Assembly (NCBI RefSeq): GCF_020181615.1
Contig: NZ_CP084029.1
Span: 4,425,142-4,477,626 of the forward strand
From: [Mycobacterium] crassicus
Lineage (GTDB): Bacteria; Actinomycetota; Actinomycetes; Mycobacteriales; Mycobacteriaceae
Direction of reading: 5' to 3'
DNA length: 52,485 nucleotides
Below are positions 16,236 to 39,990 of the stretch, in pieces. A program made the position numbers and the translations under genes. Below the pieces are notes generated by a model, which made no database searches, had not been told where the DNA came from, and was given only the letters and a program-made list of their open reading frames with translations. The number at the start of each line of letters is the position of its first letter. Within the stretch, counting starts at the first letter, position 1.

Positions 16236-16252
16236 GTTCCTGCATAAGGAAC
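16236..16252. promoter_or_regulatory. IclR-type operator candidate, site A (GTTCC-N7-GGAAC)
   Basis: The 17-bp palindrome GTTCCTGCATAAGGAAC has six-base arms. It has the same outer arms and spacing as sites at 18983, 22774, 35527, 39595 and 39741, but inner T/A in place of G/C. It lies 74 bp upstream of the small ORF at 16326 and the hydrolase at 16490. Confidence 0.55.
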
Positions 16253-16325
16253 GAAGCGGTGACTTCACCTCCGGTGTCAGCCAGGATACGGGGCACCAAC
16301 CACTCCGCAGGGAGCGTCGATCACT

Positions 16326-16487
16326 GTGTCGAAATCACTAAGGCTCATGGCGAACCGGGTCGGAGTCGACGATGCCATATACGAAGCGATCGCCCTCGCT
16401 GACCGAACGATTCAAGCGGTAAAACACATTCCGGACGGCGGCGATCCGATCACAGCACTCACCCCGATACCCAGAGAAGCTCGCTGA
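16326..16487 (+). CDS. Small hypothetical protein (53 aa) coupled to hydrolase
   Basis: A GTG-initiated ORF encoding 53 residues (MSKSLRLMANRVGVDDAIYE at the start). A GGGAG sequence about 13 bases before the GTG could be a ribosome binding site. The stop lies 2 bp before the hydrolase ATG at 16490, which suggests translational coupling. I recognise no family. It could also be non-coding leader sequence; third-position GC is only moderate. Confidence 0.4.
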   Translation: MSKSLRLMANRVGVDDAIYEAIALADRTIQAVKHIPDGGDPITALTPIPREAR

Positions 16488-16489
16488 AT

Positions 16490-17407
16490 ATGGAATTGCC
16501 GGTCAGCGAATCCCCGATGTGTGACGGCGTGCGGTATGAGACCTTCGACGTTCCGGTCGTCGGCGGCAACCTGAGGGTCGGCAGTTGGGGCGATGGCGGT
16601 CCGGTGATCCTCGCCGCACACGGCATCACTGGAAACCACCTCCATTTCGGTGAGCTCGCCAAGCAGCTCCAGCCGAACTTCACCGTGGTGGCCCCGGACC
16701 TACGCGGGCGAGGACGCAGCAGTGATATCGCGGGACCCTTCTCGATGGCAGACCATGCGGACGATCTCGTCGCCGTGCTCGACTTCTTCGGGGTCGAGCA
16801 AGCCACCGTCATCGGCCACTCGATGGGCGCATTCGCCGCGGTGGTTTGTGCCGAGCGCCACCCGGGCCGGGTGCAAAGCCTGGTTCTGATCGACGGCGGC
16901 ATACCGCTGGATCTCGGGGCGATCGCCGGCCTGCCGACCGAGCAGTTGCTCGCCAACCTGATCGGACCCGCGATCGACCGCCTACACCGCACCTTCGAAT
17001 CGCTGGCGGCGTATCTGGATTATTGGCGGCAACATCCGGCGTTCACCGACACCTGGGACACCCGTATCGAAGAGATACTCGCCTACGACCTCGGTGGTCG
17101 TCCCCCGACGCTCCGGTCGACGGTGCGTGCGGAAGCTGTCATCGCGGATGCGGAAAGCGAGCTGGACAGTGAAGCTTTCGATCGCGCACTGGCGCAGCTG
17201 GCGGTACCGGCGATCCTTTTCCGCGCCGAGCGCGGAATCCTCAATCAGGCACCACCGCTCTACTCCGATAGTGCCGTCGCGGCCTGGGCCGAGGCGGTAC
17301 CGAAGCTTCGCAGTGTGACCATTTCCGCCACGAACCACTACACGATCCTGCTGACCGAGCGTGGCGCCAAGGCAGTGTCCGACGGCCTGCAGCAGTTCCT
17401 CCGATGA
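16490..17407 (+). CDS. Alpha/beta hydrolase (esterase / C-C hydrolase type)
   Basis: A 305-residue alpha/beta-hydrolase with oxyanion region LAAHGITGN, nucleophile elbow GHSMGAF, an acidic residue in the late strand (LFRAERGI region) and His in SATNHYTIL near the C-terminus. Starts at ATG 16490 behind AGAGAAG. It lies downstream of IclR-type site A and upstream of ndh in the same direction, so it may belong to the aromatic regulon as an esterase or ring-fission hydrolase. The substrate cannot be determined; it is clearly distinct from the meta-cleavage hydrolase at 47806. Confidence 0.75.
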   Translation: MELPVSESPMCDGVRYETFDVPVVGGNLRVGSWGDGGPVILAAHGITGNHLHFGELAKQLQPNFTVVAPDLRGRGRSSDIAGPFSMADHADDLVAVLDFFGVEQATVIGHSMGAFAAVVCAERHPGRVQSLVLIDGGIPLDLGAIAGLPTEQLLANLIGPAIDRLHRTFESLAAYLDYWRQHPAFTDTWDTRIEEILAYDLGGRPPTLRSTVRAEAVIADAESELDSEAFDRALAQLAVPAILFRAERGILNQAPPLYSDSAVAAWAEAVPKLRSVTISATNHYTILLTERGAKAVSDGLQQFLR

Positions 17408-17541
17408 CACGTCGATGCCAGTCGCCGACTTCGGGTGTCTGCCGAGCTCATCTAGGCGCCGGCCGCGTCATCAAAATCTGTTGCTGCCGTGGCAGACTCG
17501 CGCGCCAATCCTGAAATGGACCGCGGTGAGAGGGAAGGTTG

Positions 17542-18957: not shown

Positions 18958-18982
18958 CGGCGGGCGTCGCCCGAGTTCCGGT

Positions 18983-18999
18983 GTTCCACTACACGGAAC
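18983..18999. promoter_or_regulatory. IclR-type operator candidate, site B (GTTCC-N7-GGAAC)
   Basis: GTTCCACTACACGGAAC lies in the 118-bp gap before the tautomerase gene at 19076. It shares outer arms, spacing and the CACGGAAC right half with the site at 35527. It probably controls the tautomerase-dehydrogenase-phasin operon. Confidence 0.65.
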
Positions 19000-19075
19000 A
19001 AACAACACCGCCGGTTCGAGCCGCGACATATGGTCGGTTGCAGTTGTGCTCGTCATCGAACAGGAAGGCGTGGAT

Positions 19076-19309
19076 ATGCCGCTGGTCGAGGTCACTCTCA
19101 CCGAAGGGCGCACCGCCGAACAGATCCGGACTCTGATTCACGAACTGACCGGCGCGGTGGAGCGGGCAGTTTCCGCCCCGGCCGCCAATATCCGGGTGGT
19201 GGTCCGTGAAGTACCCCCAACGCACTGGGCCGCCGGCGACGTCACCATCGCAGAGCGGCGCGAACGCCAGGCCCGAGCAACGGACACGCCTGGCCCCACC
19301 GATTCGTAA
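19076..19309 (+). CDS. 4-oxalocrotonate tautomerase family protein
   Basis: A 77-residue tautomerase with Pro directly after the initiator Met (MPLVEVTLTEGRTAEQIRTL), the catalytic Pro1 of the family. The second half (NIRVVVREVPPTHWAAGD) matches the 4-OT strand carrying active-site Arg residues. The ATG at 19076 follows AGGAAGG. It ketonises 2-hydroxymuconate to 4-oxalocrotonate in the oxidative meta-cleavage branch. It is 11 bp upstream of the semialdehyde dehydrogenase that would form its substrate. The length is slightly above the usual 62 residues because of a polar C-terminal tail. Confidence 0.85.
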   Translation: MPLVEVTLTEGRTAEQIRTLIHELTGAVERAVSAPAANIRVVVREVPPTHWAAGDVTIAERRERQARATDTPGPTDS

Positions 19310-19320
19310 GGGAGCATGTC

Positions 19321-20760
19321 ATGACGGCGGCATCCTCGTTCGGCCACATCATCGATGGCGAAGAGATCGACTCCCTCGACGGTGCGACGTTCGACAGCGT
19401 CGACCCGTGGACACGTGAGCCGTGGGCGCAGGTCGCCTTGGGCGGCAAAGCCGACGCCGACCGCGCAGTAGCCGCGGCCCGCAAGGCTTTCGACGAGGGA
19501 CCGTGGCCGCGGATGGGGTTCAACGAACGCGGCGCGATCCTGCACCGGCTGGCCGATCTGATGGAGGAACACGCTGACGAACTCGGCCTGGCCGACACCC
19601 GGGACATGGGCAAACCGATCACCCAGTCGCGTGGCAACGACGTCCCGAGGTCGGCGCTGAACTTCCGGTTCTTCGCCGACCACGCCCGGATGTCGACCGC
19701 TGAGGTGTTGCCGATGGACAGCGGTCATCACACTTACAACACGTTCGCGCCGGCCGGCGTGGCCGCGGCGATCTCGCCGTGGAACTTCCCGTTGATGCAG
19801 GCGACCTGGAAGGTCGCACCGGCGTTGGCCTGGGGCAACACCGTGGTGCTCAAACCGGCCGAGGACACCCCGACCTCGGCGACCATGCTGGGTCGGCTGG
19901 CCAAGGAAGCCGGCATGCCGGCCGGTGTGCTCAACGTGGTGCACGGGTACGGCCCGGATTCCGCCGGCCAAGCACTCACCGATAATCCCGCGGTCGACCG
20001 GATCACCTTCACCGGCGATTCCGGCACCGGCCGCATCATCATGCGAGCCGCCGCGGCGAATCTGACCCCGGTGAGCATGGAACTGGGAGGCAAAGGCGCC
20101 AATGTCGTTTTCGCCGACGCCGATCTCGACAACGCCGTCGACTGGTCGATTCGTGCGATCTACACCAATACCGGTCAGGTCTGCCTTGCGGGCAGTCGGC
20201 TGTACGTGCAGCGCCCGATCTACGACGAGTTCCTGTCGCGCTTCGTCGCGGCGGCCGAGGCGATGGTCATCGGCGACCCGAAAGAGGAAGCCACACAGAT
20301 CGGTCCGCTGGTCTCCGAAGAGCACTACCGCAAGGTGAAGTCGTACGTCGATCTGGTGCCCAGCGAAGGCAAGATGATCACCGGCGGCCTGGGCGACGGT
20401 TGGGTGGTCAAACCGACGGCGGTGGTGGATATCGCTCCCGATGCCCGCTTGTGCCGCGAGGAGATTTTCGGCCCGGTCGTGGTCATCACCCCGTTCGACA
20501 CCGAGCGGGAGGCTGTCGAGCTGGCCAACGACACCCGGTACGGCCTCAATTCGATGCTGTTCACCGACAACCTGCACCGGGCACACCGAGTTGCCGGCTT
20601 GTTGAAGGGCGGCAGCGTGTGGGTCAACTGCTTCTTCATCCGCGACCTGCGCGCACCGTTCGGCGGGTCGGGCGATTCCGGGGTCGGTCGAGAGGGCGGC
20701 AATTTCAGCCGCGAGTTCTTCACCGAACCGAAGGCCGTCATCATGCAACTGGCCCCGTAA
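19321..20760 (+). CDS. 2-hydroxymuconate-semialdehyde-type aldehyde dehydrogenase, copy 1
   Basis: A 479-residue NAD-dependent aldehyde dehydrogenase with catalytic Cys288 in TNTGQVCLAG, general base Glu254 in SMELGGKGAN, and C-terminal RAPFGGSGDSGVGREGG. The last motif is typical of the hydroxymuconic-semialdehyde and HpaE-like group. It lies directly after the tautomerase and before a phasin-like gene, behind IclR-type site B. Likely substrate: a ring-fission semialdehyde such as 2-hydroxymuconate or 5-carboxymethyl-2-hydroxymuconate semialdehyde. It is distinct from the XylG-like enzyme at 23968, so the two may serve different ring-fission products. Confidence 0.87.
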   Translation: MTAASSFGHIIDGEEIDSLDGATFDSVDPWTREPWAQVALGGKADADRAVAAARKAFDEGPWPRMGFNERGAILHRLADLMEEHADELGLADTRDMGKPITQSRGNDVPRSALNFRFFADHARMSTAEVLPMDSGHHTYNTFAPAGVAAAISPWNFPLMQATWKVAPALAWGNTVVLKPAEDTPTSATMLGRLAKEAGMPAGVLNVVHGYGPDSAGQALTDNPAVDRITFTGDSGTGRIIMRAAAANLTPVSMELGGKGANVVFADADLDNAVDWSIRAIYTNTGQVCLAGSRLYVQRPIYDEFLSRFVAAAEAMVIGDPKEEATQIGPLVSEEHYRKVKSYVDLVPSEGKMITGGLGDGWVVKPTAVVDIAPDARLCREEIFGPVVVITPFDTEREAVELANDTRYGLNSMLFTDNLHRAHRVAGLLKGGSVWVNCFFIRDLRAPFGGSGDSGVGREGGNFSREFFTEPKAVIMQLAP

Positions 20761-20797
20761 TGACCATGGAGTACCAACAGCCGCGAGGAGGCTCATC

Positions 20798-21085
20798 ATG
20801 ACCGAAAAGGACACGGCATCAGCCGGTTCGGCTATACCGTCGTTCGAAGAGACCACTGATCGCATTCGCGCGATCAACGAGAAGATCCTCGAAGCCGGCA
20901 AGAGCGCCGGGAGCGCGTGGCTGGACGCGTACGAGAAATCGTTGACCAATCTGTTGGCCTTCGAGAATCAAGCCGCCGGGGCCAGTCAGTCGGACTGGAT
21001 TGCCGCCCTTGCCAAGGCCCACACCGATTTCGTCGCCAACATCACCAGCGCGTACACCCAGGCCGCACGTGAACTGTTGAAATGA
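20798..21085 (+). CDS. Phasin-like small protein, copy 1
   Basis: A 95-residue, largely helical amphipathic protein (FEETTDRIRAINEKILEAGK near the start, ending AYTQAARELLK). Similar to the proteins at 34247 and 35061. The pattern of a short polar start, helix, AWLDAYEKSL, FENQAAG and FVANITSAY resembles phasins, which coat polyhydroxyalkanoate or lipid inclusions. The third gene of the tautomerase operon, with GAGGAGG at 20785. Its stop is only 4 bp from the convergent gene at 21090. A lipid-droplet or granule role is inferred from resemblance; there is no PHA synthase in the window. Confidence 0.7.
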   Translation: MTEKDTASAGSAIPSFEETTDRIRAINEKILEAGKSAGSAWLDAYEKSLTNLLAFENQAAGASQSDWIAALAKAHTDFVANITSAYTQAARELLK

Positions 21086-21089
21086 CGGG

Positions 21090-21987: not shown

Positions 21988-22683
21988 CTATAGGAACCGT
22001 GGTCGTGTCATCGCGGCTTCGCTGGACTGTCTGTGGACCCGCTCGTCGTGTCCGATTTGACGGAACAGGTCGGCAAGAGAGGCGAAGGCGCCGTAGTCAC
22101 CGGCAAAACTCGACTCGAAGGGTTCATTCTCCCATTCAGGATGTTCCGCGACGAGGGTCATGTATTCGTGTTCGGCGTGGTCTTCGAAGTCGGCGTTGAG
22201 TCGGTGGGACCACGACGGCCGCACGACGAACAGCAGCCAGGACACTTGGTAGTAGACGAACGCGATCGCCTGCGGGATCCAGTAGTACTTGATGCGCGCC
22301 TCGGTCACCCCGCTGCGGCCGATCAGTTCCTCGAGAATCAACAGGTGCCATTGCTCGTTGTCCTGCTGCGCACGCGACTCAGCCACCCGATCGTAGATGC
22401 GGCGCGCAAAGTCGGTGCGCCCGTGCATGTGGGTGATGGCGATATAGGCCACTTGCTCCCAGGACTGGTAGGGAACTCGTGCCACCAGTTCGAGCACCTT
22501 GAACTTGCTCAGCGTCCTGCGCCTGCCATAGAGCGTGTCCAGGGTGAAGAAGAGTATGCGGGCCAATATCCCATAGCGGCGGCGGGGGCTGGCCAGCGTT
22601 TCATGTTGGGCTCGAACAAGAGCGGCGTGACCCAGGTGGGGTGGCTGCGCGGAGTGGTCGATCTCGAACGCACGGTCCGTCAT
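21988..22683 (-). CDS. Alternative-oxidase-like diiron protein
   Basis: About 231 residues that I align by eye to alternative oxidase (AOX). LELVARVP corresponds to AOX LETVAGVP, DNEQWHLLILEEL to ENERMHL, QAIAFVYYQ..VRPSWSHR to the QAI..SP..HR membrane-facing segment, FEDHAEHEY to LEEEAVxxY, and HDERVHRQ to ADEAxHR. From ATG 22683 all six expected iron ligands are present: Glu65, Glu110, His113, Glu167, Glu214, His217. AOX enzymes are monotopic quinol oxidases reducing O2 to water without proton pumping. The start 22683 fits GGGGAGGAG better than ATG 22689. Alternative readings are another carboxylate-diiron oxygenase of the same fold. Divergent from the dmpH-like gene, with IclR-type site G 90 bp upstream. 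Confidence 0.75.
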   Translation of the reverse strand: MTDRAFEIDHSAQPPHLGHAALVRAQHETLASPRRRYGILARILFFTLDTLYGRRRTLSKFKVLELVARVPYQSWEQVAYIAITHMHGRTDFARRIYDRVAESRAQQDNEQWHLLILEELIGRSGVTEARIKYYWIPQAIAFVYYQVSWLLFVVRPSWSHRLNADFEDHAEHEYMTLVAEHPEWENEPFESSFAGDYGAFASLADLFRQIGHDERVHRQSSEAAMTRPRFL

Positions 22684-22773
22684 GGCCATCTCCTCCCCGT
22701 CAAGCGGTTGGCGTCCGGCGCCTATCGGGCATCGTCCGCAGGCTATTCGGGTAGCGGCGGGGACGCGAGCACT

Positions 22774-22790
22774 GTTCCGTCGATGGGAAC
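22774..22790. promoter_or_regulatory. IclR-type operator candidate, site G (GTTCC-N7-GGAAC)
   Basis: GTTCCGTCGATGGGAAC lies in the 453-bp divergent gap between the AOX-like gene (start 22683) and the dmpH-like gene (start 23137). Perfect outer arms and standard spacing. The rest of this gap holds a weaker site at 23050-23066 and no gene I can support. Confidence 0.6.
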
Positions 22791-23049: not shown

Positions 23050-23066
23050 GTTCCGATAGGAGGAAT
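23050..23066. promoter_or_regulatory. Weak IclR-type operator candidate, site F (9 of 10 arm bases)
   Basis: GTTCCGATAGGAGGAAT differs from GTTCC-N7-GGAAC only in the last base and lies 70 bp upstream of the dmpH-like gene. A single-mismatch match is expected about once per window by chance, so the support is mainly positional. Confidence 0.35.
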
Positions 23067-23136
23067 GACAGCCGGTGAGTGGCGGCCGGTGGCCTTAGGT
23101 TGGGGTGAGCCGTACCACGCCAGCTGAGGAGGATTT

Positions 23137-23922
23137 GTGGCCAAGTGGGATGAAGCGAGTGTTGCCGCCGAATTGCTCGCCTGCGAGGCGGAGCGCCGTG
23201 ATCGCGAACCATTTACCGACGAATGGCCGGAGCTCGACGTCGATACCGGCTATCGCATCCAGGATGCGAACCTGGCCAAGCGGTTGGCCCGGGGCGAGAA
23301 GCTGGTGGGCGTGAAGCTGGGTCTGACCAGTGCGGCCAAGCAGAAGCGGATGGGTGTGTACGCCCCATTCGTCGCGTGGCTCACCGACGACATGATCCTC
23401 GACGAGGGCGCCCCGGTGCCGCAGGCCAAGCTGATCCACCCGCGGATCGAGCCGGAGATCATTTTCGTGATGAAGGACCGGCTGGCAGGCCCGGGTGTCA
23501 CCCGCGAATCGGCGATGGCCGCCGTCGAGACGGTCTCGGCCGGTGCCGAGGTGATCGATTCCCGGTACAAGAACTTCCGCTTCCGTGCCGGTGATGTGGT
23601 CGCCGACAACGCATCCAGCGGGGCGTGGGCGACCGGCTCGGTAGTGGTCAAGCCCGAAGACATCGATCTGCTGAATGAGAAGGTCGAGGTCTACGTCGAC
23701 GGCAAGCTCGAGCACACCGGCACCGGCGCCGACGTGCAGGGGCACCCCGGCGAGGCGCTGGCGCTGGCCGCCAACGACCTGGCCCGCCGTGGGTTGGCCA
23801 TCGAGGCCGGCCAGATCGTGCTGACCGGCGGTATCACCGACGCGGTCTTCGCCCCGCCGGGGTCGACGGTGACCTGCAAGTTCTCCACCCTGGGCGAGGT
23901 AACCATCGAAGGCGGCAAGTGA
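23137..23922 (+). CDS. 4-oxalocrotonate decarboxylase / 2-oxo-acid hydratase family protein, copy 1
   Basis: A 261-residue member of the hydratase/decarboxylase family that acts on meta-cleavage intermediates using Mg2+ or Mn2+. LIHPRIEPEIIFVMK, VIDSRYKNFRFRAGDVVADN and GIVLTGGI-like C-terminal sequence fit the XylI/DmpH decarboxylase subgroup (DSRYxNFxF) better than the hydratase subgroup (DSRxxDWKIK). GTG 23137 follows GAGGAGG. It precedes the XylG-like dehydrogenase at 23968, so dehydrogenase and decarboxylase of the oxidative branch are together; the tautomerase is 4 kb away at 19076. A second decarboxylase is at 40763. Confidence 0.82.
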   Translation: MAKWDEASVAAELLACEAERRDREPFTDEWPELDVDTGYRIQDANLAKRLARGEKLVGVKLGLTSAAKQKRMGVYAPFVAWLTDDMILDEGAPVPQAKLIHPRIEPEIIFVMKDRLAGPGVTRESAMAAVETVSAGAEVIDSRYKNFRFRAGDVVADNASSGAWATGSVVVKPEDIDLLNEKVEVYVDGKLEHTGTGADVQGHPGEALALAANDLARRGLAIEAGQIVLTGGITDAVFAPPGSTVTCKFSTLGEVTIEGGK

Positions 23923-23967: not shown

Positions 23968-25443
23968 GTGCACGAGCACAAGGAGATCAAAGTTCGGCAG
24001 CTGCCGAATTTCATCAACGGCAAGTTCGTCGAGACCGGGAATACATTCGACGTCTTGTACCCGATCACCGGTGAGGTCACCGCCCAGGCGCACGCCGCGG
24101 GCAAGGCCGAGGTGGACGCGGCGGTCGCGGCCGCCCAGGCGGCCCTGCACGGCCCGTGGGGCAAGATGTCGCAGGCGGAGCGCTCCAAGATGGTCCGTGC
24201 CATCGCCGACGGCGTCAACAGACGGTTCGACGAGTTCCTCGAAGTGGAGGTCCTCGACACCGGCAAGCCCTACTCGGTCGCCAGCCACGTCGACATCCCT
24301 CGGGGTGCGGCCAACTTCGAGACCTTCGCCGATGTGCTCCGCGAGAATCCCACCGAGGCATTTCGGATGGACACCCCGGACGGCCTGGGCGCGCTCAACT
24401 ACGGGATCCGCCATCCCCGCGGCGTTATCGGCATCATCTCGCCGTGGAACCTGCCGCTGCTGCTGATGACCTTTAAGGCCGGTCCGGCGCTGGCCTGCGG
24501 CAACACCGTGGTCGTCAAGCCGTCCGAGGTCACCCCCTCGTCCGCCACCCTGCTCGGCGAGGTCATGAACGAGGTCGGCGTGCCGGAAGGCGTCTACAAC
24601 GTCGTGCACGGGTACGGCGAGACCGGCGCGCTGATCACCTCGCACCCCGACGTCGACGGCGTCACCTTCACCGGTGAGACCGTGACCGGTTCGATCATCC
24701 TGAAAGCGATCGCCCCGACGCTGAAAGCCTCCTCGATGGAGATGGGCGGCAAGAACGCCGGCATCGTCTTCGAGGATGCCGACCTCGACCTGACCATCAA
24801 GGAACTGGGCCGGTCGTGCTTCCTCAACACCGGCCAGGTCTGCCTGGGCACCGAGCGGGTCTACGTCCACCAGTCGATCTTCGACAAGGTCGCCGACCGG
24901 CTGGTGGACTACGCCAAGAACGAGCTCAAGTACGGCTACCCCGATGAGGAGTCCACCAACTTCGGTCCGGTGGTCTCCGACGAGCACCGCGACAAGGTAC
25001 TGAGCTACTACAAGCTCGCCGAGGAAGAGGGCGCCGAGGTGCTGTACGGAGGCGGCGCGCCGACGTTCGGCGACGAGCGAGACGGCGGTTCCTGGGTGGA
25101 ACCCACCATCTGGAAAGGTCTCGCCCACGACAGCCGGGTGGTCACCGAGGAGATCTTCGGACCCGCCGTTGCGCTGATCCCCTTCACTGACGAGGACGAG
25201 GTGATCAAGCTCGCCAACGACACCGACTACGGTCTGGCGGCAACCTTCTTCAGCACCAACTCCTCCCGGGTGCACCGGGTCGCCCCGCAACTCGAGGCCG
25301 GAATCGTCTGGGTCAACAGCTGGTTCCTCCGCGACCTACGCACGGCCTTCGGCGGCATGAAACAGTCCGGCATCGGCCGCGAGGGCGGCGTGCACGGGCT
25401 GGAGTTCTACACCGAGATGTCCAACGTCTGCGTCAAGATCTGA
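23968..25443 (+). CDS. 2-hydroxymuconic semialdehyde dehydrogenase (XylG/DmpC-like)
   Basis: A 491-residue NAD-dependent aldehyde dehydrogenase that oxidises 2-hydroxymuconate semialdehyde, the product of catechol meta-cleavage. Catalytic Cys292 lies in LNTGQVCLG and Glu258 in SSMEMGGKNAG. The C-terminus ends FYTEMSNVCVKI, very similar to the characteristic DmpC/XylG ending. Starts at GTG 23968, 45 bp after the decarboxylase. Its 3' end abuts the benD remnant on the opposite strand. The similarity to the enzyme at 19321 is at family level, not that of a recent duplicate. Confidence 0.9.
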   Translation: MHEHKEIKVRQLPNFINGKFVETGNTFDVLYPITGEVTAQAHAAGKAEVDAAVAAAQAALHGPWGKMSQAERSKMVRAIADGVNRRFDEFLEVEVLDTGKPYSVASHVDIPRGAANFETFADVLRENPTEAFRMDTPDGLGALNYGIRHPRGVIGIISPWNLPLLLMTFKAGPALACGNTVVVKPSEVTPSSATLLGEVMNEVGVPEGVYNVVHGYGETGALITSHPDVDGVTFTGETVTGSIILKAIAPTLKASSMEMGGKNAGIVFEDADLDLTIKELGRSCFLNTGQVCLGTERVYVHQSIFDKVADRLVDYAKNELKYGYPDEESTNFGPVVSDEHRDKVLSYYKLAEEEGAEVLYGGGAPTFGDERDGGSWVEPTIWKGLAHDSRVVTEEIFGPAVALIPFTDEDEVIKLANDTDYGLAATFFSTNSSRVHRVAPQLEAGIVWVNSWFLRDLRTAFGGMKQSGIGREGGVHGLEFYTEMSNVCVKI

Positions 25444-25737: not shown

Positions 25738-26616
25738 TCAGATGTTGCTTTGATCGGGCGGAACTTGGGCTGCGACGGGCTCGGCGTCCGCTGCACCGCC
25801 AACGAAGCGGCGGCAGCCGAGGGTGTACGCGGTCATCGACAGCGCACCCATCGCGTAACCATCAACCAGCACATCGGTGGTCGATCGGTCACTGGCCGCC
25901 AGGCCGGCCAGGTAAAGCAGCGGAATGAAGTGGTCCGGTGTCGGGACCGCGACCGCAAAATCCGGGTGGGATTGCAGTCCGGCAAGATCGGCTGGGCTCG
26001 TCGTCATGAGCTCGCGAGCAGCGTCGTCGAACGCCCGCGCCCATCGGTAGCCGGTATCGGGCCGGCGCCAATCTATTCGGGCCAGGTTGTGCACGATATT
26101 GCCGCTGGCCAGCACCAGCACTCCCCGATCCCGTAGCGCGGCCAGCTTGGCGCCGAGGTCAAGGTGGTAATCGAATTGCTTTTGCGCGTTGACCGCCAGT
26201 TGCACCACCGGAATGTCCGCGGCCGGAAACGCGTGAACCAGCACCGACCACGCGCCGTGGTCAAGGCCCCAGCTGTCGTGGTCAAGGCCCACCCAGGCCG
26301 GTTTGACCAATTCGACGATCTCGCCGGCCAAGTCGGGGTCACCCGGCGCCGGGTACTCGACCGCGAAGAGTTCGTCGGGGAATCCGTAGAAATCATGGAT
26401 GGTCCGAGGTTGCGCCATCGCGGTGACCGCGGACGCGTTGATGTACCAGTGCGCGGAGATCATCAAGATCGCCCGCGGGCGGGGAACGCTCGCTCCGAAG
26501 TCGCGCCATGCCTCGGTGTACCGATTGTGTTCGATGGCGTTCATCGGGGTGCCGTGACCGAGGAAGGCCGCCGGCATCCGCACCGGCTTTGCATCGGCGG
26601 TGGACGTCATCGGCAT
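25738..26616 (-). CDS. LigB-superfamily extradiol dioxygenase, DODA/YgiD-like
   Basis: A 292-residue class III ring-cleavage dioxygenase resembling 4,5-DOPA dioxygenases. The metal and active-site histidines are visible in FLGHGTPMNA, ISAHWY, LDHGAWSVL and ASGNIVHNLA, in the family order. It would cleave a catechol-type ring with O2 at a mononuclear metal site. Substrate unknown; it is unrelated in sequence to the type I catechol 2,3-dioxygenase at 45317. ATG 26616 used; a second ATG is two codons in. Divergent from pknK across 230 bp, with only a degenerate IclR-like half palindrome at 26725-26741. Confidence 0.85.
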   Translation of the reverse strand: MPMTSTADAKPVRMPAAFLGHGTPMNAIEHNRYTEAWRDFGASVPRPRAILMISAHWYINASAVTAMAQPRTIHDFYGFPDELFAVEYPAPGDPDLAGEIVELVKPAWVGLDHDSWGLDHGAWSVLVHAFPAADIPVVQLAVNAQKQFDYHLDLGAKLAALRDRGVLVLASGNIVHNLARIDWRRPDTGYRWARAFDDAARELMTTSPADLAGLQSHPDFAVAVPTPDHFIPLLYLAGLAASDRSTTDVLVDGYAMGALSMTAYTLGCRRFVGGAADAEPVAAQVPPDQSNI

Positions 26617-30194: not shown

Positions 30195-33082
30195 CCTCGG
30201 CGGAGGTTCCGGAGCTGACCGTTCGGTATGACGGATCCGATCACACGTTCGGGGCGGGCGACGAGGTGGTCATCGGCCGTGACAGCCGCGCTGACCTGCG
30301 CATCGCGGATCCGTTGATCTCGCGCGCGCATCTACTGCTGCGGTTCGAGCAGGACCGGTGGGTCGCGGTTGACAACGACAGCCTCAACGGGATGTTCGTG
30401 CGCGGTCGGCGGGTGCCCACTATCGACATCGAGGACGGCCTGCACATCAACATCGGCAGCCTGGTGGGGCCGCTGCTGACTTTTGGGGTGGGCAACCAGC
30501 ACGGGTCAGCCGAGGACTCCGCCGCGTCGGCGGTGTCCGACATGGCGCAGCAGGCCAACTCGCAGCTCACTGCGATCGGCCCGGCACCTCGCCGTGGTCG
30601 TCACACGAAGTTGGATCTTGTGACCAGTTTGCGCAAGATCGGCCGGCCCGTCGGGTCGACGGAGCCCACGGGTCTGGTCAACATCGGTCGGGCCGCCGAC
30701 AACGACATCGTGGTCCCCGATCCGTTGGCCTCGCGTCACCACGCGACGTTGGTGCCGACCGCGGCGGGTATGGAGATCCACGACGCCCACAGCATCAACG
30801 GCACATTCGTCAACGGCGTAGCGGTCGATCAAGAGTTGCTGCACGACGGCGACGTGGTGACGGTCGGCAACGCAGATCTGGTGTTCTCCGATGGCACGCT
30901 GATCCACCGCACCGAGACCGAAACAGCGACCCGTACCGGTGGCCTCGGGGTGCACAGCATCGGGTGGACCATCGCGCCCAACAAGACGCTGCTGGACAAC
31001 ATCTCGTTTGTCGCCCGCCCCGGCACGCTGACCGCGGTGATCGGTCCATCCGGCGCCGGCAAGAGCACGCTGGCCAAGCTGATCGCCGGGTACACCGCGC
31101 CGACCCTCGGAACGGTGATTTTCGAGGGTCACGACATTCACGCCGACTACGCTTTGTTGCGCAGCCGGATCGGGGTGGTGCCCCAAGATGACGTGCTGCA
31201 CTATCAGCTCACCGTCAGCCAGGCGCTGGGCTACGCCGCCGAACTGCGGCTGCCGCCCGACACCAGCAAGGCCGAGCGCCGCGAAATCGTCACGCAGGTG
31301 CTCGACGAGCTGGATCTGACCGTGCATGCCGACACGCGGGTCGACAAGCTCTCCGGCGGCCAGCGCAAACGCGCCTCGGTCGCGATGGAATTGCTGACCC
31401 GACCGTCGCTGCTGATCCTCGACGAGCCGACATCGGGTCTTGATCCCGCGCTGGACCGCCAGGTGATGACCATGCTGCGGCAACTGGCCGACGCCGGGCG
31501 GGTGGTGCTGGTTGTGACGCACTCGCTGTCCTACCTCGACGTGTGTGATCAGGTGCTGCTGCTGGCGCCCGGCGGCAAGACAGCGTTCTGCGGGCCGCCA
31601 AATCAGATCGGCCCGTCGATGGGCACGACCAACTGGGCCGACATCTTCACCGCCATCGGCGCCGATCCCGACACGGCGCATCTGCAGTTTCTTGAGCGCG
31701 TCAAACCTCCACCGCCCCTGCCGGAAGGCGAGAAGCCCGCCGCGTTGGGCGGACCGGGCCGCATCAGCCTGCGGCGCCAGTTTTCCACGATCGCGCGTCG
31801 CCAGGTCCAACTCGTCACTGCCGATCGGGGCTATTTCACCTTCTTGGCGGTGCTTCCGTTCATCTTGGGAACGCTGACGCTAATGGTCCCGGGCAATGCG
31901 GGGTTTGGGCTTGCCGACGTGCGCGGTCCCACCCCAAACGAGCCGGTGCAGATCGTCATGCTGCTCAGCATCGGCGCCGCCTTTATGGGGGCGGCGCTGA
32001 CCGTTCGGGATCTGGTCGGTGAACGGGTGATCTTCCGCCGCGAGCAGGCCGCCGGCCTGTCGGCCTCGGCTTATCTGGTCGCCAAGATAGTCGTCTTCAG
32101 CATGGTCGTCTCGGTGCAAACGTTCGTATTGTTCGGCATTCTCACCATCGGCAAAGGCACACCCCCCTCCGACGCGGTCGTTCTCGGCGATCCGACATTC
32201 GAGCTGTATGTCACTCTTGCCGCCACCGCCATCGTCTGCGCGATCATGGGTCTGGCTCTGTCCTCCGCCGCCAGCTCACAGGATCAGATCCTGCCCATGC
32301 TCGTCGTGACCGTCATGTTGTCGTTTGTGTTCTGCGGCGGGCTCATTCCCGTCAGCGACCGTGTCGTTCTCGACCAGCTGTCCTGGCTCGTACCCTCCCG
32401 CTGGGGTTTCGCCGCCTCTGCCTCCACCGTTGATATCCCCAACGTTGTCCCGCTGACACCGGCCAACGAGACCCTGTGGACGCACAGCCCCAAATGGTGG
32501 CTGTTGGACATGACGGCGCTGCTCGTCCTCGGCGTCGTTATGGCAATGTTTACCCGGTGGCGGCTCCGGCTGAAGGCTATCGCCGGGCCGAAGCCAGCCG
32601 GCCCGGCCAAACGATTGGCTGTGGCTGCGGGTCGAAAAATCAAGGGCATCACGCGGCCTCGCGCGACCGCCACCCTGCCGGGCAGGCGCAACTACGCCAG
32701 AATCATCTATACGTGCGTGTTGGTCGGGGTCCTGGTCGCGTTAGCGGCAGATTTGATATTTCTGATGTCGCGATCGCACCGTTACGTGCCGCCGTCCCCT
32801 ACCTCGCCGGTGCCGCCGCCGACCTCGGCTGTGGTGGCGCCGCCCCCCACCACGACTGTGGCGGTGCCGCCGCCGACCACAACTGTGGCGCCGCCGCCCC
32901 CCACGGCTGTGGTAGCGCCGCCCCGCACCACAACTCCGGTGCGGCGGGCTCCGACACAGTATCCGGTGACGCCGGTGCCCGAATCTCCACCGGCGCCCGA
33001 ATCTCCACCGGCGCCCGAATCTCCGCTATTCCCACCGCCCCCTCCTCCGCTGGCGCCAGCGCCCGAAGCCACACCCGGCTGA
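30191..33082 (+). CDS. ABC exporter with two FHA domains and proline-rich tail (Rv1747-like)
   Basis: 963 residues. Two FHA phosphothreonine-binding domains lie at about 20-90 and 165-240 (each with GR..D.D and SRxH motifs). An ABC ATPase follows with Walker A GPSGAGKST at 285-293, signature LSGGQRKR near 387 and Walker B LLILDEPTSGLDP, then an ABC2-type permease of about six helices (540-790). Beyond the Rv1747 pattern there is an extra hydrophobic helix (IIYTCVLVGVLVALAADLIF, about 840-860) and a ~100-residue Pro/Thr-rich tail, probably outside the membrane. ATG 30191 overlaps the pknK stop. FHA binding to phospho-Thr made by PknK is the likely control. Confidence 0.88.
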   Translation: MTSAEVPELTVRYDGSDHTFGAGDEVVIGRDSRADLRIADPLISRAHLLLRFEQDRWVAVDNDSLNGMFVRGRRVPTIDIEDGLHINIGSLVGPLLTFGVGNQHGSAEDSAASAVSDMAQQANSQLTAIGPAPRRGRHTKLDLVTSLRKIGRPVGSTEPTGLVNIGRAADNDIVVPDPLASRHHATLVPTAAGMEIHDAHSINGTFVNGVAVDQELLHDGDVVTVGNADLVFSDGTLIHRTETETATRTGGLGVHSIGWTIAPNKTLLDNISFVARPGTLTAVIGPSGAGKSTLAKLIAGYTAPTLGTVIFEGHDIHADYALLRSRIGVVPQDDVLHYQLTVSQALGYAAELRLPPDTSKAERREIVTQVLDELDLTVHADTRVDKLSGGQRKRASVAMELLTRPSLLILDEPTSGLDPALDRQVMTMLRQLADAGRVVLVVTHSLSYLDVCDQVLLLAPGGKTAFCGPPNQIGPSMGTTNWADIFTAIGADPDTAHLQFLERVKPPPPLPEGEKPAALGGPGRISLRRQFSTIARRQVQLVTADRGYFTFLAVLPFILGTLTLMVPGNAGFGLADVRGPTPNEPVQIVMLLSIGAAFMGAALTVRDLVGERVIFRREQAAGLSASAYLVAKIVVFSMVVSVQTFVLFGILTIGKGTPPSDAVVLGDPTFELYVTLAATAIVCAIMGLALSSAASSQDQILPMLVVTVMLSFVFCGGLIPVSDRVVLDQLSWLVPSRWGFAASASTVDIPNVVPLTPANETLWTHSPKWWLLDMTALLVLGVVMAMFTRWRLRLKAIAGPKPAGPAKRLAVAAGRKIKGITRPRATATLPGRRNYARIIYTCVLVGVLVALAADLIFLMSRSHRYVPPSPTSPVPPPTSAVVAPPPTTTVAVPPPTTTVAPPPPTAVVAPPRTTTPVRRAPTQYPVTPVPESPPAPESPPAPESPLFPPPPPPLAPAPEATPG
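32981..33016 (+). repeat. 18-bp tandem repeat in transporter proline-rich tail
   Basis: Two exact copies of GAATCTCCACCGGCGCCC (32981-32998 and 32999-33016) are followed by a partial third. They encode ESPPAP hexapeptide repeats. Upstream, 32800-32940 holds imperfect repeats encoding PPPTTTVA units. The array could vary in copy number between strains. Confidence 0.85.
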
Positions 33083-35060: not shown

Positions 35061-35354
35061 CTACTTGAGGATGTCGCGCATGGCGTTGACATAGAAGCCG
35101 CTGATGTCCTGCACGAACTTTGCCTGCATGTTGGCCAATGTCGAGACCCATTCAATTTGACTGTCGCCCGCGATCTTGGACTGGAAGTCCACCAGGGACT
35201 GCAGTGCATGCTCGTACGCGTCCAGTGACGCCTGGCCGGCCTGCTTCGCGGAGTCAATCAGCGTCTCGTTGAGGTCGCGGATGCGCGCGACACCCTCCTC
35301 GACGGCGCCCGCGTCCAACGCCGTGGATTTGGCCGTCTTGCTCGTGGTTGTCAT
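35061..35354 (-). CDS. Phasin-like small protein, copy 3
   Basis: A 97-residue amphipathic helical protein with a Thr/Ser/Ala/Lys-rich start (MTTTSKTAKSTALDAG). The core is like copies 1 and 2: RIRDLNETLIDSAKQAGQAS, SLVDFQSKIAG, QIEWVSTLANMQAKFVQDI. Divergently arranged relative to copy 2 with the XRE regulator between. AGAAGGAG precedes the ATG at 35354. Upstream lie the shared 37-bp element (35411) and, further out, IclR-type site C (35527), so two regulators may act here. Confidence 0.72.
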   Translation of the reverse strand: MTTTSKTAKSTALDAGAVEEGVARIRDLNETLIDSAKQAGQASLDAYEHALQSLVDFQSKIAGDSQIEWVSTLANMQAKFVQDISGFYVNAMRDILK

Positions 35355-35447: not shown

Positions 35448-35526
35448 CGGGCGGGGCCGCCACCGTGAGCGACGCCAACGACGGTCCCGCCATCCTGCCT
35501 CGAAGCGATACGCGGCCGGCGCCGGT

Positions 35527-35543
35527 GTTCCGCCACACGGAAC
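35527..35543. promoter_or_regulatory. IclR-type operator candidate, site C (GTTCCG-N5-CGGAAC)
   Basis: GTTCCGCCACACGGAAC has perfect six-base arms. It lies between the phasin-like start (35354) and the end of the hydroxyquinol dioxygenase (35643), so it would act on the leftward phasin promoter. Confidence 0.7.
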
Positions 35544-35642
35544 CCCCACGCCACTGCCGCCGGCTTCGCTGAATGCATCACCCTCGCTGATTTCCAGGCG
35601 CTGGAGGTCTGACGAGATCCGCGCTCCCACTACATCAGTCGA

Positions 35643-36542
35643 TCAGCGGTCTTCGTGCGGAGGCGCGGGGGCGAGGACGATACCGAGGCGGACGCTTGAC
35701 CAGGGCAGATCGCCGAGATCACGCCCATCGGGGGTGGGAACACCCGGTGGCCGGCGATCGAATTCCTTGATCAGCGAATCCTTGACGCCGAACACAGCAT
35801 CGCGGTCTATGTATTCGTCGCCGGCGACGAAGATGTGGGTGACCAGGGTCCGCAACCCTTCAGCAGTGACCATGACGTGCAGGTGGGCCGCCCGCATCGG
35901 CGAGCGCTGCACCGCTGCCAGCAACGCGCCGACCGGGCCGTCGTGCGGAACCGGGTACGGAACGGGTGTCAGACACCAGAAGCGGTAAGCACCGTGCTCG
36001 TCGCTGAACAGGTAACCACGGCCGGCAACGCGACCGTCGGGGTATTGCACATCGTAGTAGCCGTCCGCGTCGGCCTCCCACACGTCGATCCGGGCGCCGG
36101 CAACCGGATTACCGCTGATGTCGGTGACCGTGCCCTCGACCCAGCACGGCTCGCCCGCGGCGCCGGCGGCGATGTCGCCGCCGATCGGGATATGTGGAGC
36201 GTCATCAACAAAGAACGGGCCGAATACCGTTGCCTCGGTGGTGTTCGCATGCGCCTCGTTGTTGACGGCGATGGTCTGCATCGAGGCGCCCAGCACATCG
36301 GAGAGCAGAATGAACTCCTGACGCCGCTCATCGGTGATGTCGCCGCAATCGGTCAAAAACTTGATGGCGGCATCCCATTCCTGCTCGGTCAGCCGTACGT
36401 CCCGGATGAAGCCGTGCAGATGACGAACCAGGGTTTGCATCAGCTGCCGCAGCCGCGGGTCCGGAGTCTCACCGAATGACGCGACCACCCGGTATACCAG
36501 GCTCTCCTCGACTTCCCGCTGTTCGGACGTGAGCTCGGCCAT
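35643..36542 (-). CDS. Hydroxyquinol 1,2-dioxygenase (intradiol)
   Basis: A 299-residue non-haem Fe(III) intradiol dioxygenase that cleaves hydroxyquinol to maleylacetate. The N-terminal dimerisation domain ([20 protein letters not shown]) and the catalytic Tyr/His ligand regions [27 protein letters not shown] and AAHLHVMV are present. ATG 36542 starts MAELTSEQ; a longer upstream frame would overlap the reductase. It lies 2 bp after maleylacetate reductase in one operon, which settles hydroxyquinol over catechol as substrate. Two IclR regulators sit upstream of the operon. Confidence 0.88.
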
Positions 36543-36544
36543 GG

Positions 36545-37624
36545 TCACTCTTCCCTTTCGTTGGCGACTGTCCTGGGGTCGCTGCCTCGCCATGCCGCAT
36601 ACAGCAACCGGCGCAGATTCTCCGCGGTGACCGGGCGGGGATTGCTCGCGGGGACCGCCTGCCTGATGATCTCGACCGCGTCGTCGATGTCGGCGGCGTC
36701 AAACCCGTAATCACCGAGCGCCCGCGGCGCGTCGAGTTGCTCCCGGAGCCGCTCCAGGCCGTCGATTGCGCTGGGGACCTCGAGGGCGGCCGCGATCCGT
36801 GCTGCTGCTTCTGGGGCAGCAGATGCGTTGAACGCCAGCACGTACGGCAGTACGACGGCGTGGGTTTGGGCATGCGGCAGGTTGTAGGTACCGCCGAGAA
36901 CGTGGCAGATCTTGTGGTGAAATCCCGAGCCGGCCGACGAGAACGCCACCGCCGAGAGGTAGGCACCGTACAGCGTGTACTCGCGTCCACTCAGCCCCAT
37001 CGGGTCCGACACCACCTGCGGCAACCCGATGCGCAAGGCGCGGATCCCCTCCTGCGCCAGGGCCCGGTCGATGGGATCGGAGTGCGGGCCCCACATCGCA
37101 TCCACCGAGTGCGCGATCGCGTTCAATCCCGAGGCCACGCTCACCGGTACCGGCAGGGTGCGCGTCAACTCCGCGTCGTAGATGACTGCCCGGGGCAGTA
37201 CCCGGGGGTCGACACCGGTACTCTTGCGGTCGCCTTCGGTCAGGCCCCACATCGCGGTGGCCTCCGACCCGGCATAGGTGGTCGGGACCGCAACGATCGG
37301 CAGCCCGCTGGACAGCGCGATAGCTTTGGCCAGCCCGGTCGCCGAACCGCCGCCGATACAGACCAGCGCGTCCACCCGATGTACCGCGGCCGCGGCGCGG
37401 GCCCGCTCTGCCACCTCTGTCGGTACGTGCATCGCCACCTCGTTGTGCTGGTGCACGACCGGCAGGTCGGTGACGATCTTCTCCGAGCGCGCCGCCTCGG
37501 CCGGGGACGCGATCACCATGACCCGTTCGGCACCCAGCCGCTTGACCTCGCCGGTAAGCATGGCCGCTGCCGCGCCCGCACCAAAACAGATTCGCTGCGG
37601 CAGATTTTCATGCTCAAACAGCAT
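36545..37624 (-). CDS. Maleylacetate reductase
   Basis: A 359-residue iron-alcohol-dehydrogenase-family enzyme that reduces maleylacetate to 3-oxoadipate with NAD(P)H. It has the nucleotide-binding [15 protein letters not shown], the family stretch [14 protein letters not shown] and the metal or active-site region [14 protein letters not shown] 37624 ([10 protein letters not shown]) fits the typical start of the family; a TTG nine bases upstream is less likely. First gene of the two-gene operon with the dioxygenase. No IclR palindrome lies in its 88-bp upstream gap, so it may be read through from the IclR gene at 37713. Confidence 0.9.
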
Positions 37625-37712
37625 GGCTGGCAAGCCGTTTCACAGCCTACAGCTCAGCCACCCGGCGCCGCGCGCCCGGCGAGACGATCGGCAAACCGAG
37701 CCGCCGGCAGAA

Positions 37713-38489
37713 TCAGATATCGAGGTCGCCCACCAGACGCCGGGCGGCAACGATGACAAGGCGAGCGTTCGACTCAATTCGGTCCTCCAATTCCGCCGAT
37801 GTCGCCACCAGTGATATCGCCGCAACAGCTCGGCCCGTGCGGTTGCGAACGGGTGCAGCGACTGACGTGATGCCAAGAGCGGCCTCCTGGGCATTCACTG
37901 CGTAGCCACGTCGCTTGGTCTGTTCCAGTGCCGCGTTGAATCCGGCGAGGTCACGGATCGATTTCGGTGTCCAAGCCGGGAATCCCGCCTCGCGTCGTGC
38001 GTTGGCGACCAGCGGATCAAACGCGGCGATCGCCTTGCCGGAACTGCTCACGTGCACCGGCATGCGAGCGCTGATGCGGGCCATCGCCGGGTATCGTCCC
38101 GGACCATGCATGCGCTCGATGTAGATGACATTCGCTGCGTCCGGCACCGCGAGATGGACGGTGAATCCGGTCCGCTGACGTAGATCTTCCAGAATCGGCC
38201 TAGCCCGCGGCCTGATCGGTAACCGACTGATCGTGAGTTGGCCCAGTTCATGTAGGCGCAGGCCCAGTTGGTAGCGGCCGGTCTCCGGGTCGCGCGCAGC
38301 GAACCCGCGGTCGCACAGACTGGTCAGCAGCCGATGCGCGGAACTCTTGGAGATTTCCAGCCGGTCGGCCAAGTCGGTCACGCCGAGTTGTTCGTCCCGT
38401 TGGAAACAATCCAGTAAGTCGAGTGCATTGAGCACCGACTTCAAGCCACCGTCTACAGCGCGACGGGCACGGTTAAAACTCGCCTTCAT
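37713..38489 (-). CDS. IclR-family transcriptional regulator 1
   Basis: A 258-residue regulator with an N-terminal winged HTH (VTDLADRLEISKSSAHRLLT) and a C-terminal IclR effector domain (TGFTVHLAVPD...VHVSSSGKAIAAFDP...YAVNAQEAALGITSVAAPV). ATG 38489 is chosen over the longer frame because AGAGG precedes it. Upstream of, and co-oriented with, the hydroxyquinol genes, so probably their regulator; also a candidate for the GTTCC-N7-GGAAC sites. The effector is presumably an aromatic intermediate. Confidence 0.88.
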   Translation of the reverse strand: MKASFNRARRAVDGGLKSVLNALDLLDCFQRDEQLGVTDLADRLEISKSSAHRLLTSLCDRGFAARDPETGRYQLGLRLHELGQLTISRLPIRPRARPILEDLRQRTGFTVHLAVPDAANVIYIERMHGPGRYPAMARISARMPVHVSSSGKAIAAFDPLVANARREAGFPAWTPKSIRDLAGFNAALEQTKRRGYAVNAQEAALGITSVAAPVRNRTGRAVAAISLVATSAELEDRIESNARLVIVAARRLVGDLDI

Positions 38490-38598
38490 CGAACCTCTGC
38501 AGTCAACTCTAAACCTCTGACCACGGTGGCGGCACCCGGTGCGGAATCGCACGTCAAGCTCGCCGCGACCGCTTGGGACTTCGGTCTGGTGAACCGCA

Positions 38599-39402
38599 CT
38601 AGCGCCGACTCCGGCCCGGTGGTAGCACCGTTCTGATTTTCTGTGAAATCGCCGCCGCGGTCAGCTGGAGCGGTTTTGCGTAGTAGCGCCAGTCATCTTC
38701 TCGGCTTGGCTCTTGCTGGCAGACGATGGCGACGGCCGCGACGACCTGACCGCAGGGGCCACGCACAGGGACCGCGATCGATGCGACACCGATCTCACGC
38801 TCGTCCACGGTGTGCGACCAGCCTCGAGCCCGAACCATGCACAGTTCACGACGAAATTGAGCCGGATCGGCGATCGTGTGTGCTGTTGGGGCGTCAAAGT
38901 GATACGCCGCCAACAAAGCGCCCAATTCGGCATCGGGGAGGTACGCCATGATCGCTTTGCCGCAACTGGAGTAATGCGCGGCCAGTCGAGTGTTGTAGGC
39001 ACTCGTCGGATGCCGGCCGTTGCGCTTCACGAGTTGCTCGATATGCACCACTTCGGTGCCGTCCAGCACGCCCAGGTGCACCGTCCGTCCGGTCCGTTGG
39101 TGGAGGTGCACCAAGTTGGGCATAGCCGCCTCGTGCAGTTGCAACGGTGCGGAGGCCGCCGCGGCGAGGTCGATGGAGACCAACGAGAGACGATATGTCC
39201 GGGTTCCCGGATCGTGCTCCAGCAGACGCTCCGCGACGAGCGCGGTGAGTATCCGGTGCACGGTGCTCTTGCTGAGACCGAGGTCGCGACTGAGTTGAGT
39301 CACTCCTCGCGGGCCGGGACTATGACTGAACGCCGTGAGCACCCGAGCGGTGTTCTGCGCCGACGACATCCGCTCCAAACCGCGCTCCAAGGTACTGGTC
39401 AC
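38599..39402 (-). CDS. IclR-family transcriptional regulator 2
   Basis: A 267-residue IclR protein. HTH VTQLSRDLGLSKSTVHRIL lies at about 34-52; the effector domain runs from TGRTVHLGVLD through YSSCGKAIMAYLP to VASIAVPVRGPCGQVVAAV. GTG 39402. It is divergent from the dmpE-led phenol operon across 551 bp that contain sites D and E. This makes it the strongest candidate regulator of that operon and of the shared palindrome family. Its HTH differs from IclR regulator 1, so the two may bind distinct or overlapping sites. Confidence 0.88.
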   Translation of the reverse strand: MTSTLERGLERMSSAQNTARVLTAFSHSPGPRGVTQLSRDLGLSKSTVHRILTALVAERLLEHDPGTRTYRLSLVSIDLAAAASAPLQLHEAAMPNLVHLHQRTGRTVHLGVLDGTEVVHIEQLVKRNGRHPTSAYNTRLAAHYSSCGKAIMAYLPDAELGALLAAYHFDAPTAHTIADPAQFRRELCMVRARGWSHTVDEREIGVASIAVPVRGPCGQVVAAVAIVCQQEPSREDDWRYYAKPLQLTAAAISQKIRTVLPPGRSRR

Positions 39403-39594
39403 GTGGTCTCACCTGCCGACCAACGGACAAAGACGCGGACCGGCGACCGGTGGAAGCGATCGCATCTCGGTGATGTAGGCGCGACGGATGGTGGCGACTG
39501 ACCCGCCGTCGTTTGACGCGTCGCTATCGCGTCGTGATATACCGTGACCGACACCACATTGACGATAGTCCGAAGACGGGTTAAACACCTCGGC

Positions 39595-39611
39595 GTTCCG
39601 CTATACGGAAC
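39595..39611. promoter_or_regulatory. IclR-type operator candidate, site D (GTTCCG-N5-CGGAAC)
   Basis: GTTCCGCTATACGGAAC, perfect six-base arms with further flanking symmetry (CGGC outside left, GCCG further right). In the divergent gap between IclR regulator 2 and the phenol operon. Confidence 0.75.
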
Positions 39612-39712
39612 AAACGCCGGGCGATACCCGACACCGTTAGCCGTGACGACCATGCTCAACTCAACCGCGCAGTCGGCATCGTGAGACGAAGGCCAACCTC
39701 CGGCGGGATCGT

Positions 39713-39990
39713 TCACAGATCACCCCCGGATACCGGCGTGGTTCCGGTCGGCGGAACGACCCGCCGGCAGAACCACCACTTGCTACCAGACCGCTGACAC
39801 TCGAACGAGGCGTCCAGCACGCAACCCGGTCGCCGGGCGGACAACGTCGATGACGACCTTTTCGACTCCGTGCGGCTCGAATGATCCGAATAGCGGGGCA
39901 GATTCCGCCATGAGGAACACTTCGTTGTAGAGGCCCGAAGGCTGGCGCATGGTGTGGCTGTGGTCACTCCCACTGTAATTGCCGAACTCG
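39713..39990 (-). pseudogene. Possible decayed gene of unknown family
   Basis: Reverse-strand translation gives two coding-like stretches in adjacent frames: GLYNEVFLMAESAPLFGSFE up to about 39830, then a stretch including CQRSGSKWWFCRR ending at a stop at 39713-39715. A single frameshift near 39820 would join them. I do not recognise the family. It overlaps site E and the start of the hydratase at 39954. It may equally be a chance reading of the divergent promoter region. Confidence 0.25.
39741..39757. promoter_or_regulatory. IclR-type operator candidate, site E (GTTCCG-N5-CGGAAC)
   Basis: GTTCCGGTCGGCGGAAC, perfect six-base arms, centred 146 bp from site D and about 200 bp upstream of the dmpE start. 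Two sites in one gap suggest looping or separate control of the divergent promoters. The 551-bp gap otherwise shows only a doubtful decayed reading frame. Confidence 0.65.

Follow-up and report, generated by a model that had tools for sequence, protein, structure and literature searches.

A recurrent IclR-type palindrome in fixed phase with predicted promoters outlines a putative phenol regulon in [Mycobacterium] crassicus

A published survey of the IclR family describes, within group 1, a GTT-11-AAC subgroup with the consensus GTTYCRYW3RYGRAAC, predicted for 54 ortholog groups; tandem sites 18–22 nt apart are common in this subgroup, and the main text of the survey names no Mycobacterium (0 occurrences) (PMC8222616). 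A table in the same survey includes GenR of Corynebacterium glutamicum, an IclR regulator of aromatic genes, which recognizes ATTCC-N7(5)-GGAAT and controls gentisate and 3-hydroxybenzoate genes rather than those for phenol hydroxylase or meta-cleavage (PMC8222616). Activator control of actinobacterial phenol hydroxylase genes has been described for PheR1 and PheR2 of Rhodococcus opacus PD630, which are AraC-type proteins, and the IclR activators HbaR1 and VanR1 of this strain serve 4-hydroxybenzoate and vanillate (PMC9582017). Here we analyzed a stretch of 52,485 nucleotides of [Mycobacterium] crassicus (the window; positions 4425142–4477626 of a one-contig genome of 4,871,803 bases), in which the palindrome GTTCC-N7-GGAAC recurs among predicted aromatic-degradation genes, including a phenol operon and the genes of two IclR-family proteins, IclR1 and IclR2 (Table 1; seven-digit positions are genome coordinates). 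The palindrome is of the same 17-bp class as the GTT-11-AAC sites and, like its variant at 39902, is close to the GenR site, but it occurs singly or in pairs 46–57 bp apart.

All six perfect copies in the window, as well as a copy with nine of the ten arm bases at 23050, were found exactly where the initial annotation had placed them. Three further 9/10 copies, each with one arm mismatch, had been missed: 39902, which lies between genes, and 21906 and 44474, which lie at or in genes. The six perfect copies had been described as intergenic, and they do lie outside all family-scanned genes; the frame that ends at 16221, ahead of 16236, was not part of that scan. The chance expectation of about 0.05 given earlier is the equal-base value. 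Genome-based expectations are 0.087 (calculated from the eight other genome sites, which lie outside the cluster described below; P = 6e-10) and 0.066 (from the same arms at other spacings; P = 1e-10), so the six copies seen exceed chance. The alignment of the perfect sites showed constant arms and a variable spacer, with YGTTCCG-N5-CGGAACR as the extended form. The fit to the GTT-11-AAC consensus, ten positions of which were preset by the search, was 13–17 of 17 for 51 perfect sites and 13–16 for the window sites other than 39595, and the centre was not always A/T. The IclR-type architecture proposed earlier is thereby borne out, and the sites qualify by sequence as GTT-11-AAC-type IclR operators with putative protein binding.

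A whole-genome scan found 16 perfect sites, 8 of which fall within 50 kb (4441377–4491738), namely the six window sites and two just beyond the window (4488528 and 4491722). The same arms with spacers of 2–14 occur 89 times in the genome; N7 accounts for 16 of these, and the remaining 12 spacings average 6.1. In an unbiased dyad scan of ten genomes (413,759 bp), GTTCC-N7-GGAAC ranked first of 6031 dyads, with 44 seen versus 0.6 expected; the stretches surrounded phenol hydroxylase genes and were picked by enzyme and not by motif, save in the source genome. Site counts, spacing specificity and dyad rank led us to set aside chance or base composition as the source of the palindromes. A scan of the whole genome had been proposed earlier, with frequent occurrence inside unrelated coding regions as the adverse outcome. 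Half of the sites indeed cluster, but six of the seven outside sites inspected (4806400, the eighth, was left out) lie in long coding-like frames, 1518798 being the exception. The contrast is not absolute, because this frame test likewise places four of the eight cluster sites in open frames (276–345 codons), with coding scores of 41–81 versus 119–380 outside.

The sites stand at a fixed distance from predicted promoters. We examined 56 perfect sites from 13 of 14 genomes (G809 contributes none), counting offsets from the palindrome centre. For 51 of them a −10-like hexamer, nAnnnT, lies 36–38 bp away on one side or both, compared with a mean of 8.7 and a maximum of 16 at other offsets, and the stricter TAnnnT was seen at this distance 15 times versus 0.58 expected. 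This phase was present at 27 of 61 one-mismatch sites and at 52 of 330 two-mismatch sites, the latter being the background level (about 16%). In the source genome it was found at seven of the eight perfect sites of the cluster; in the window, all six perfect sites, 23050 and 39902 show it, and 21906 and 44474 do not. Of 53 oriented flanks, 16 have an open ATG or GTG frame that starts 6 or 7 nt past the hexamer, and none has one that starts at 0–5 or 8–10 nt; for other four-base windows the mean is 4.7. Distances from site to start are fixed at 49 bp for the reductase gene (five genomes) and 50 bp for the hydratase gene (three genomes). The start codons 6–7 nt past the hexamer point to leaderless transcripts, with the operator centre near −49 if transcription starts there. 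No conserved −35 hexamer was found in the aligned flanks of the perfect sites. Placement of a dimer 5′ of a −35 region that lacks a conserved hexamer fits an activator, and the phase with an operator near −49 suggests activation.

The phase also indicates which gene a palindrome may serve. Sites 39595 and 39741 had been assigned to the phenol operon, but by promoter phase they appear to face the divergent iclR2–iclR1–dehydrogenase–dioxygenase operon, and the phenol operon is predicted to be served by its own 9/10 site, 39902. Near copies of the latter, ATTCCGCCATGCGGAAC in G083 and ATTCCGCTATGCGGAAC in G251, lie 5′ of the phenol hydroxylase beta genes of these relatives. The predicted regulon extends past the window to 4485943, a 9/10 copy with MaoC-like and HbpS-like genes on either side, and to 4491722, which is flanked by phosphatidyltransferase-like and cyclopropane-synthase-like genes. 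Because 4491722 shows the phase in both directions, its target would be one of these two neighbours. The polyhydroxybutyrate-depolymerase/polyhydroxyalkanoate-synthase-like gene adjoining 4488528 was dropped as a target, since this site has no phase and is overlapped by the 3′ end of the family-supported frame before it.

To compare genomes, we searched 396 Mycobacterium genomes for the phenol hydroxylase alpha subunit (E up to 1e-150), IclR1 (E up to 1e-50) and IclR2 (E up to 1e-60). The alpha subunit and IclR1 were each found in ten, and these are the identical ten, the source genome included; IclR2 orthologs were found in three. The named loci with the closest IclR2 are those of Mycobacterium sp. 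SM1 and isolate Bu41. In the nine other carriers, the surroundings of the alpha gene (stretches of 29–40 kb, 341.9 kb in all) contain 36 perfect sites (2, 3, 5, 5, 5, 5, 4, 3 and 4) against about 0.5 expected, while their whole genomes hold 107, with 71 outside these stretches in about 48 Mb. IclR1 is inside the alpha stretch in seven of the nine; in G083 the distance is about 47 kb and in G156 the gene is on another contig, in each case with sites nearby. For G047, G176, G391, G009 and G156, IclR1 was seen, and their alpha stretches gave no match to IclR2 or to IclR3, a further paralog of the relatives; G295 has an additional IclR-like frame (33%). Better-scoring matches displaced those they overlapped in the maps of relatives, and the "inside gene" labels of a simple frame caller, which took antisense and over-long frames, were excluded from the counts. 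Whole-genome motif counts distinguished carriers only modestly, averaging 12.3 in the ten carriers versus 6.7 (standard deviation 3.3, maximum 20) in 144 sampled genomes without an IclR1 match; the marker of carriers is the clustering of sites, not their number.

Beyond the genus, IclR1 was sought in a sample of 401 genomes from the family (E up to 1e-55) and 219 from the order (E up to 1e-58), which yielded it in four further genomes of other genera, two from each sample. In G437 and G873 the phenol cluster adjoins IclR1 and has one and three perfect sites, respectively. G809 has the phenol cluster with 9/10 sites only. In G585 the beta subunit, the 150-aa (amino acid) protein and the hydrolase are matched and one perfect site is present, with no alpha match on an 18-kb contig. 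Since IclR1 orthologs track phenol hydroxylase and the sites across genomes, IclR1 is the better regulator candidate of the two. The earlier proposal of one regulon joining separate blocks through an IclR-type operator is supported, and the operator recurs in related genomes, but the protein encoded at 38599 is a less likely regulator than the one encoded at 37713.

We consider it probable that the palindrome is an IclR1-type operator at which a dimer activates transcription of a phenol regulon when a pathway compound is bound. The dimer would occupy YGTTCCG-N5-CGGAACR, its centre some 37 bp 5′ of the −10 hexamer and near −49 from the predicted transcript start, just 5′ of a poorly conserved −35 region, and binding of a phenol-pathway compound to the C-terminal domain of IclR1 would switch transcription on. 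Predicted targets are the phenol hydroxylase/meta-cleavage operon, the detached meta-pathway blocks and the iclR–dioxygenase branch, to which the alternative oxidase (AOX)-like, phasin-like and HbpS-like genes and one or the other neighbour of 4491722 may be added.

Two readings without an IclR protein can be set aside. GGAAC is also known as the −35 element of extracytoplasmic function (ECF) sigma factors, 16–18 bp from the −10 element, and the right arm has these very letters. Here the gap from arm to hexamer is 27–29 bp, and both arms matter: of the phased one-mismatch flanks, 20 have the altered base in the distal arm and 13 in the proximal arm, and it is perfect palindromes that are enriched. 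An ECF promoter is therefore very improbable. RNA hairpins or terminators, or chance palindromes, are hardly credible either, even though the arms could pair and 16236 lies 15 bp past the end of a reading frame. In six genomes the site at the reductase promoter carries a single altered arm base with no compensating change, and the arms are constant while the spacer varies. The promoter phase also speaks against this reading, and the counts exclude chance.

Two other readings retain an IclR protein. IclR2, or IclR1 and IclR2 jointly, might read the sites as paralogs with different inducers and one operator set: IclR2 is the first gene of the operon faced by 39595, its recognition helix is nearly identical to that of IclR1, and the three IclR2 genomes share a similar ATTCC variant site (39902, G083 and G251). 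But site clusters occur in carriers that lack IclR2, so that IclR2 as sole regulator was set aside, and IclR3 is present in only 6 of the 14 genomes' stretches examined (G083, G251, G165, G437, G809 and G873); we regard a role of IclR2, alone or shared, as unlikely. That IclR1 acts as a repressor released by phenol compounds would accord with the general view of IclR proteins as repressors (PMC9582017) and with 9/10 sites 34–43 bp ahead of iclR1 in G165, G083 and G251. It seems rather unlikely, since the operator lies 5′ of a non-conserved −35 region at fixed phase, and not over the −10 element or the start, and IclR activators of aromatic pathways are known (PMC9582017).

Several points weigh against activation by IclR1 as we propose it. 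The recognition helices of IclR1 (KSSAHRL), IclR2 (KSTVHRI) and the relatives' IclR3 (KSTVHRL) are nearly alike. The phase is missing at 5 of the 56 perfect sites, including 4488528 of the source genome; nAnnnT is a loose pattern; and orthologous promoters recur, so the site counts are not independent. In the published survey, many gene groups of aromatic metabolism are under-represented in GTT-11-AAC regulons, and IclR sites are most frequent at −22 relative to the gene start, with the majority at −20 to −80 (PMC8222616). The AOX-like and phasin-like genes each gave 0 of 9 matches in the other carriers, in a search without a positive control there, so that their sites have no counterparts in those genomes for comparison. 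Finally, 1518798, outside the cluster, also carries the phase, and by its sequence it may be either a true site or a chance one. By eye, it lies between a tRNA-like stretch and a reading frame, with TAGGAT at +37.

Table 1. Predicted operators and genes of the window (window coordinates; hexamer offsets from the palindrome centre)
Feature	Coordinates	Strand	Remarks
Perfect operator	16236–16252	+	246 bp 5′ of alpha/beta hydrolase gene; −10-like CAGGAT at +38, ~16282–16287
Perfect operator	18983–18999	+	5′ of tautomerase, aldehyde dehydrogenase and phasin-like genes; TATGGT at +38, 19029–19034
Perfect operator	22774–22790	−	Faces AOX-like gene; TAGCCT at +37, 22745–22740
9/10 operator	23050–23066	+	5′ of decarboxylase/hydratase-type and aldehyde dehydrogenase genes; TAGGTT at +38, 23096–23101
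Perfect operator	35527–35543	−	181 bp 5′ of phasin-like gene; CAGGAT at +38, 35497–35492
Perfect operator	39595–39611	−	Published consensus 17/17; TATCGT at +36 (39567–39562) faces iclR2, 201 bp off
Perfect operator	39741–39757	−	Weak −10-like AACGAT at +36, minus strand
9/10 operator	39902–39918	+	CATGGT at +38 (39948–39953); in-frame GTG at 39960 of hydratase frame
Alpha/beta hydrolase gene	16490–17407	+	Family match; aromatic substrate only putative
Tautomerase gene	19076–19309		Downstream of 18983
Aldehyde dehydrogenase gene	19321–20760		Downstream of 18983
Phasin-like gene	20798–21085		Downstream of 18983; no family match
AOX-like gene	21988–22689	−	PF01786
Decarboxylase/hydratase-type gene	23137–23922		Downstream of 23050
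Aldehyde dehydrogenase gene	23968–25443		Downstream of 23050
LigB-type gene	25738–26616		Without perfect or 9/10 site
Phasin-like gene	35061–35354	−	No family match
Intradiol dioxygenase gene	35643–36593	−	Downstream of iclR genes
Iron-dependent dehydrogenase gene	36545–37633	−	Downstream of iclR genes
IclR1	37713–38552	−	PF01614, PF09339
IclR2	38599–39402	−	PF01614, PF09339
Phenol operon	39954–48633	+	Hydratase, decarboxylase, phenol hydroxylase beta and alpha, ferredoxin, catechol 2,3-dioxygenase, reductase, 150-aa protein, hydrolase

Family searches support most of the gene assignments. The alpha subunit is nearest to a solved phenol hydroxylase (1.7e-200), and the catechol 2,3-dioxygenase passes its NCBIfam cut-off. 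The hydratase, decarboxylase, tautomerase and semialdehyde dehydrogenase are of meta-pathway types by best family match, with NCBIfam scores under the cut-offs, and the 150-aa protein (47357–47809) has no Pfam match. Both IclR proteins, as annotated initially, score above cut-off for PF09339 (N-terminal IclR helix-turn-helix) and PF01614 (C-terminal IclR domain), and they are 38% identical over 196 aligned positions. Neither reaches the cut-off of the PcaR/PcaU/PobR subfamily (TIGR02431, 284.75 bits), with 117.8 bits for IclR1 and 136.7 bits for IclR2. The AOX-like protein scores 40.5 bits against PF01786 (cut-off 22.7) and is thus a predicted alternative oxidase, as its homologs are annotated. 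The name phasin was not upheld: the two phasin-like proteins, 43% identical to one another, have no Pfam or NCBIfam match, including to a phasin model, and none of the eight homologs of the protein encoded at 35061–35354 found in a protein search is named phasin. Two of these homologs are on contigs sized 4754 and 21035, as are two IclR1 homologs, which hints at linkage elsewhere. The claim that the motif marks every aromatic-gene block was overstated, because the LigB-type gene is free of sites and the 16490 hydrolase is only putatively aromatic. We read the iron-dependent dehydrogenase as of the maleylacetate-reductase type. A frame of about 53 codons (16329–16489, by eye) lies between 16236 and the hydrolase gene. 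Between the aromatic blocks, at 26847–33082, there are a protein kinase with an NTPase and TPR-like region and an FHA–ABC transporter fusion, with neither a perfect nor a 9/10 site.

The neighbourhoods in relatives extend this picture. Homologs of the iron-dependent dehydrogenase in G083 and G251 have a perfect site 74–76 bp upstream. HbpS-like genes with a site are found in the source genome, G083 and G251 (58% identity between the source and G083; that of G251 was left out of the family scan). A second hydroxylase alpha subunit, 24–25% identical to the window alpha, is present in the stretches of all nine carriers; two of these were family-scanned, and that of G251 is nearest to toluene/o-xylene monooxygenase (1.5e-192). 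Three perfect sites often lie between the two divergent hydroxylase operons, with a distance of 46–57 bp between two of these sites (e.g., G009 5271565–5272104 and G156 C4:4394–4932). In L018 (9273–10004) and L019 (9270–10004), the two named relatives, the frame immediately 5′ of IclR2 encodes a 243-aa protein that matches no Pfam family, and a 9/10 site lies just ahead of this frame; in the window the protein is not adjacent to IclR2.

The initial observation is confirmed, and its interpretation is partly supported, being right in kind and corrected in parts. The literature searched, which was open-licence only and so gives weak evidence of absence, showed no IclR regulon for phenol or toluene genes in mycobacteria. 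The operator type has already been published; the promoter phase appears to be new, and the phenol regulon was not seen in print. Possibly, though we put this forward only tentatively, IclR1 is an activator dedicated to promoters that are often leaderless, with the 37-bp phase of operator and −10 kept across two bacterial families. In the source species the same switch would also stand before the AOX-like (respiratory bypass), HbpS-like (haem-related), lipid and granule-like genes, so that one sensor would run both phenol breakdown and tolerance.

These results provide a testable regulon and a named candidate regulator for the meta-cleavage of phenol, and in relatives probably of toluene, in mycobacteria. 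Given the fixed phase of operator and promoter, further targets can be predicted from sequence, and a palindrome between divergent genes can be assigned to one of the two. If the proposed reading is true, the AOX-like oxidase and other accessory genes would be tied to the phenol signal.

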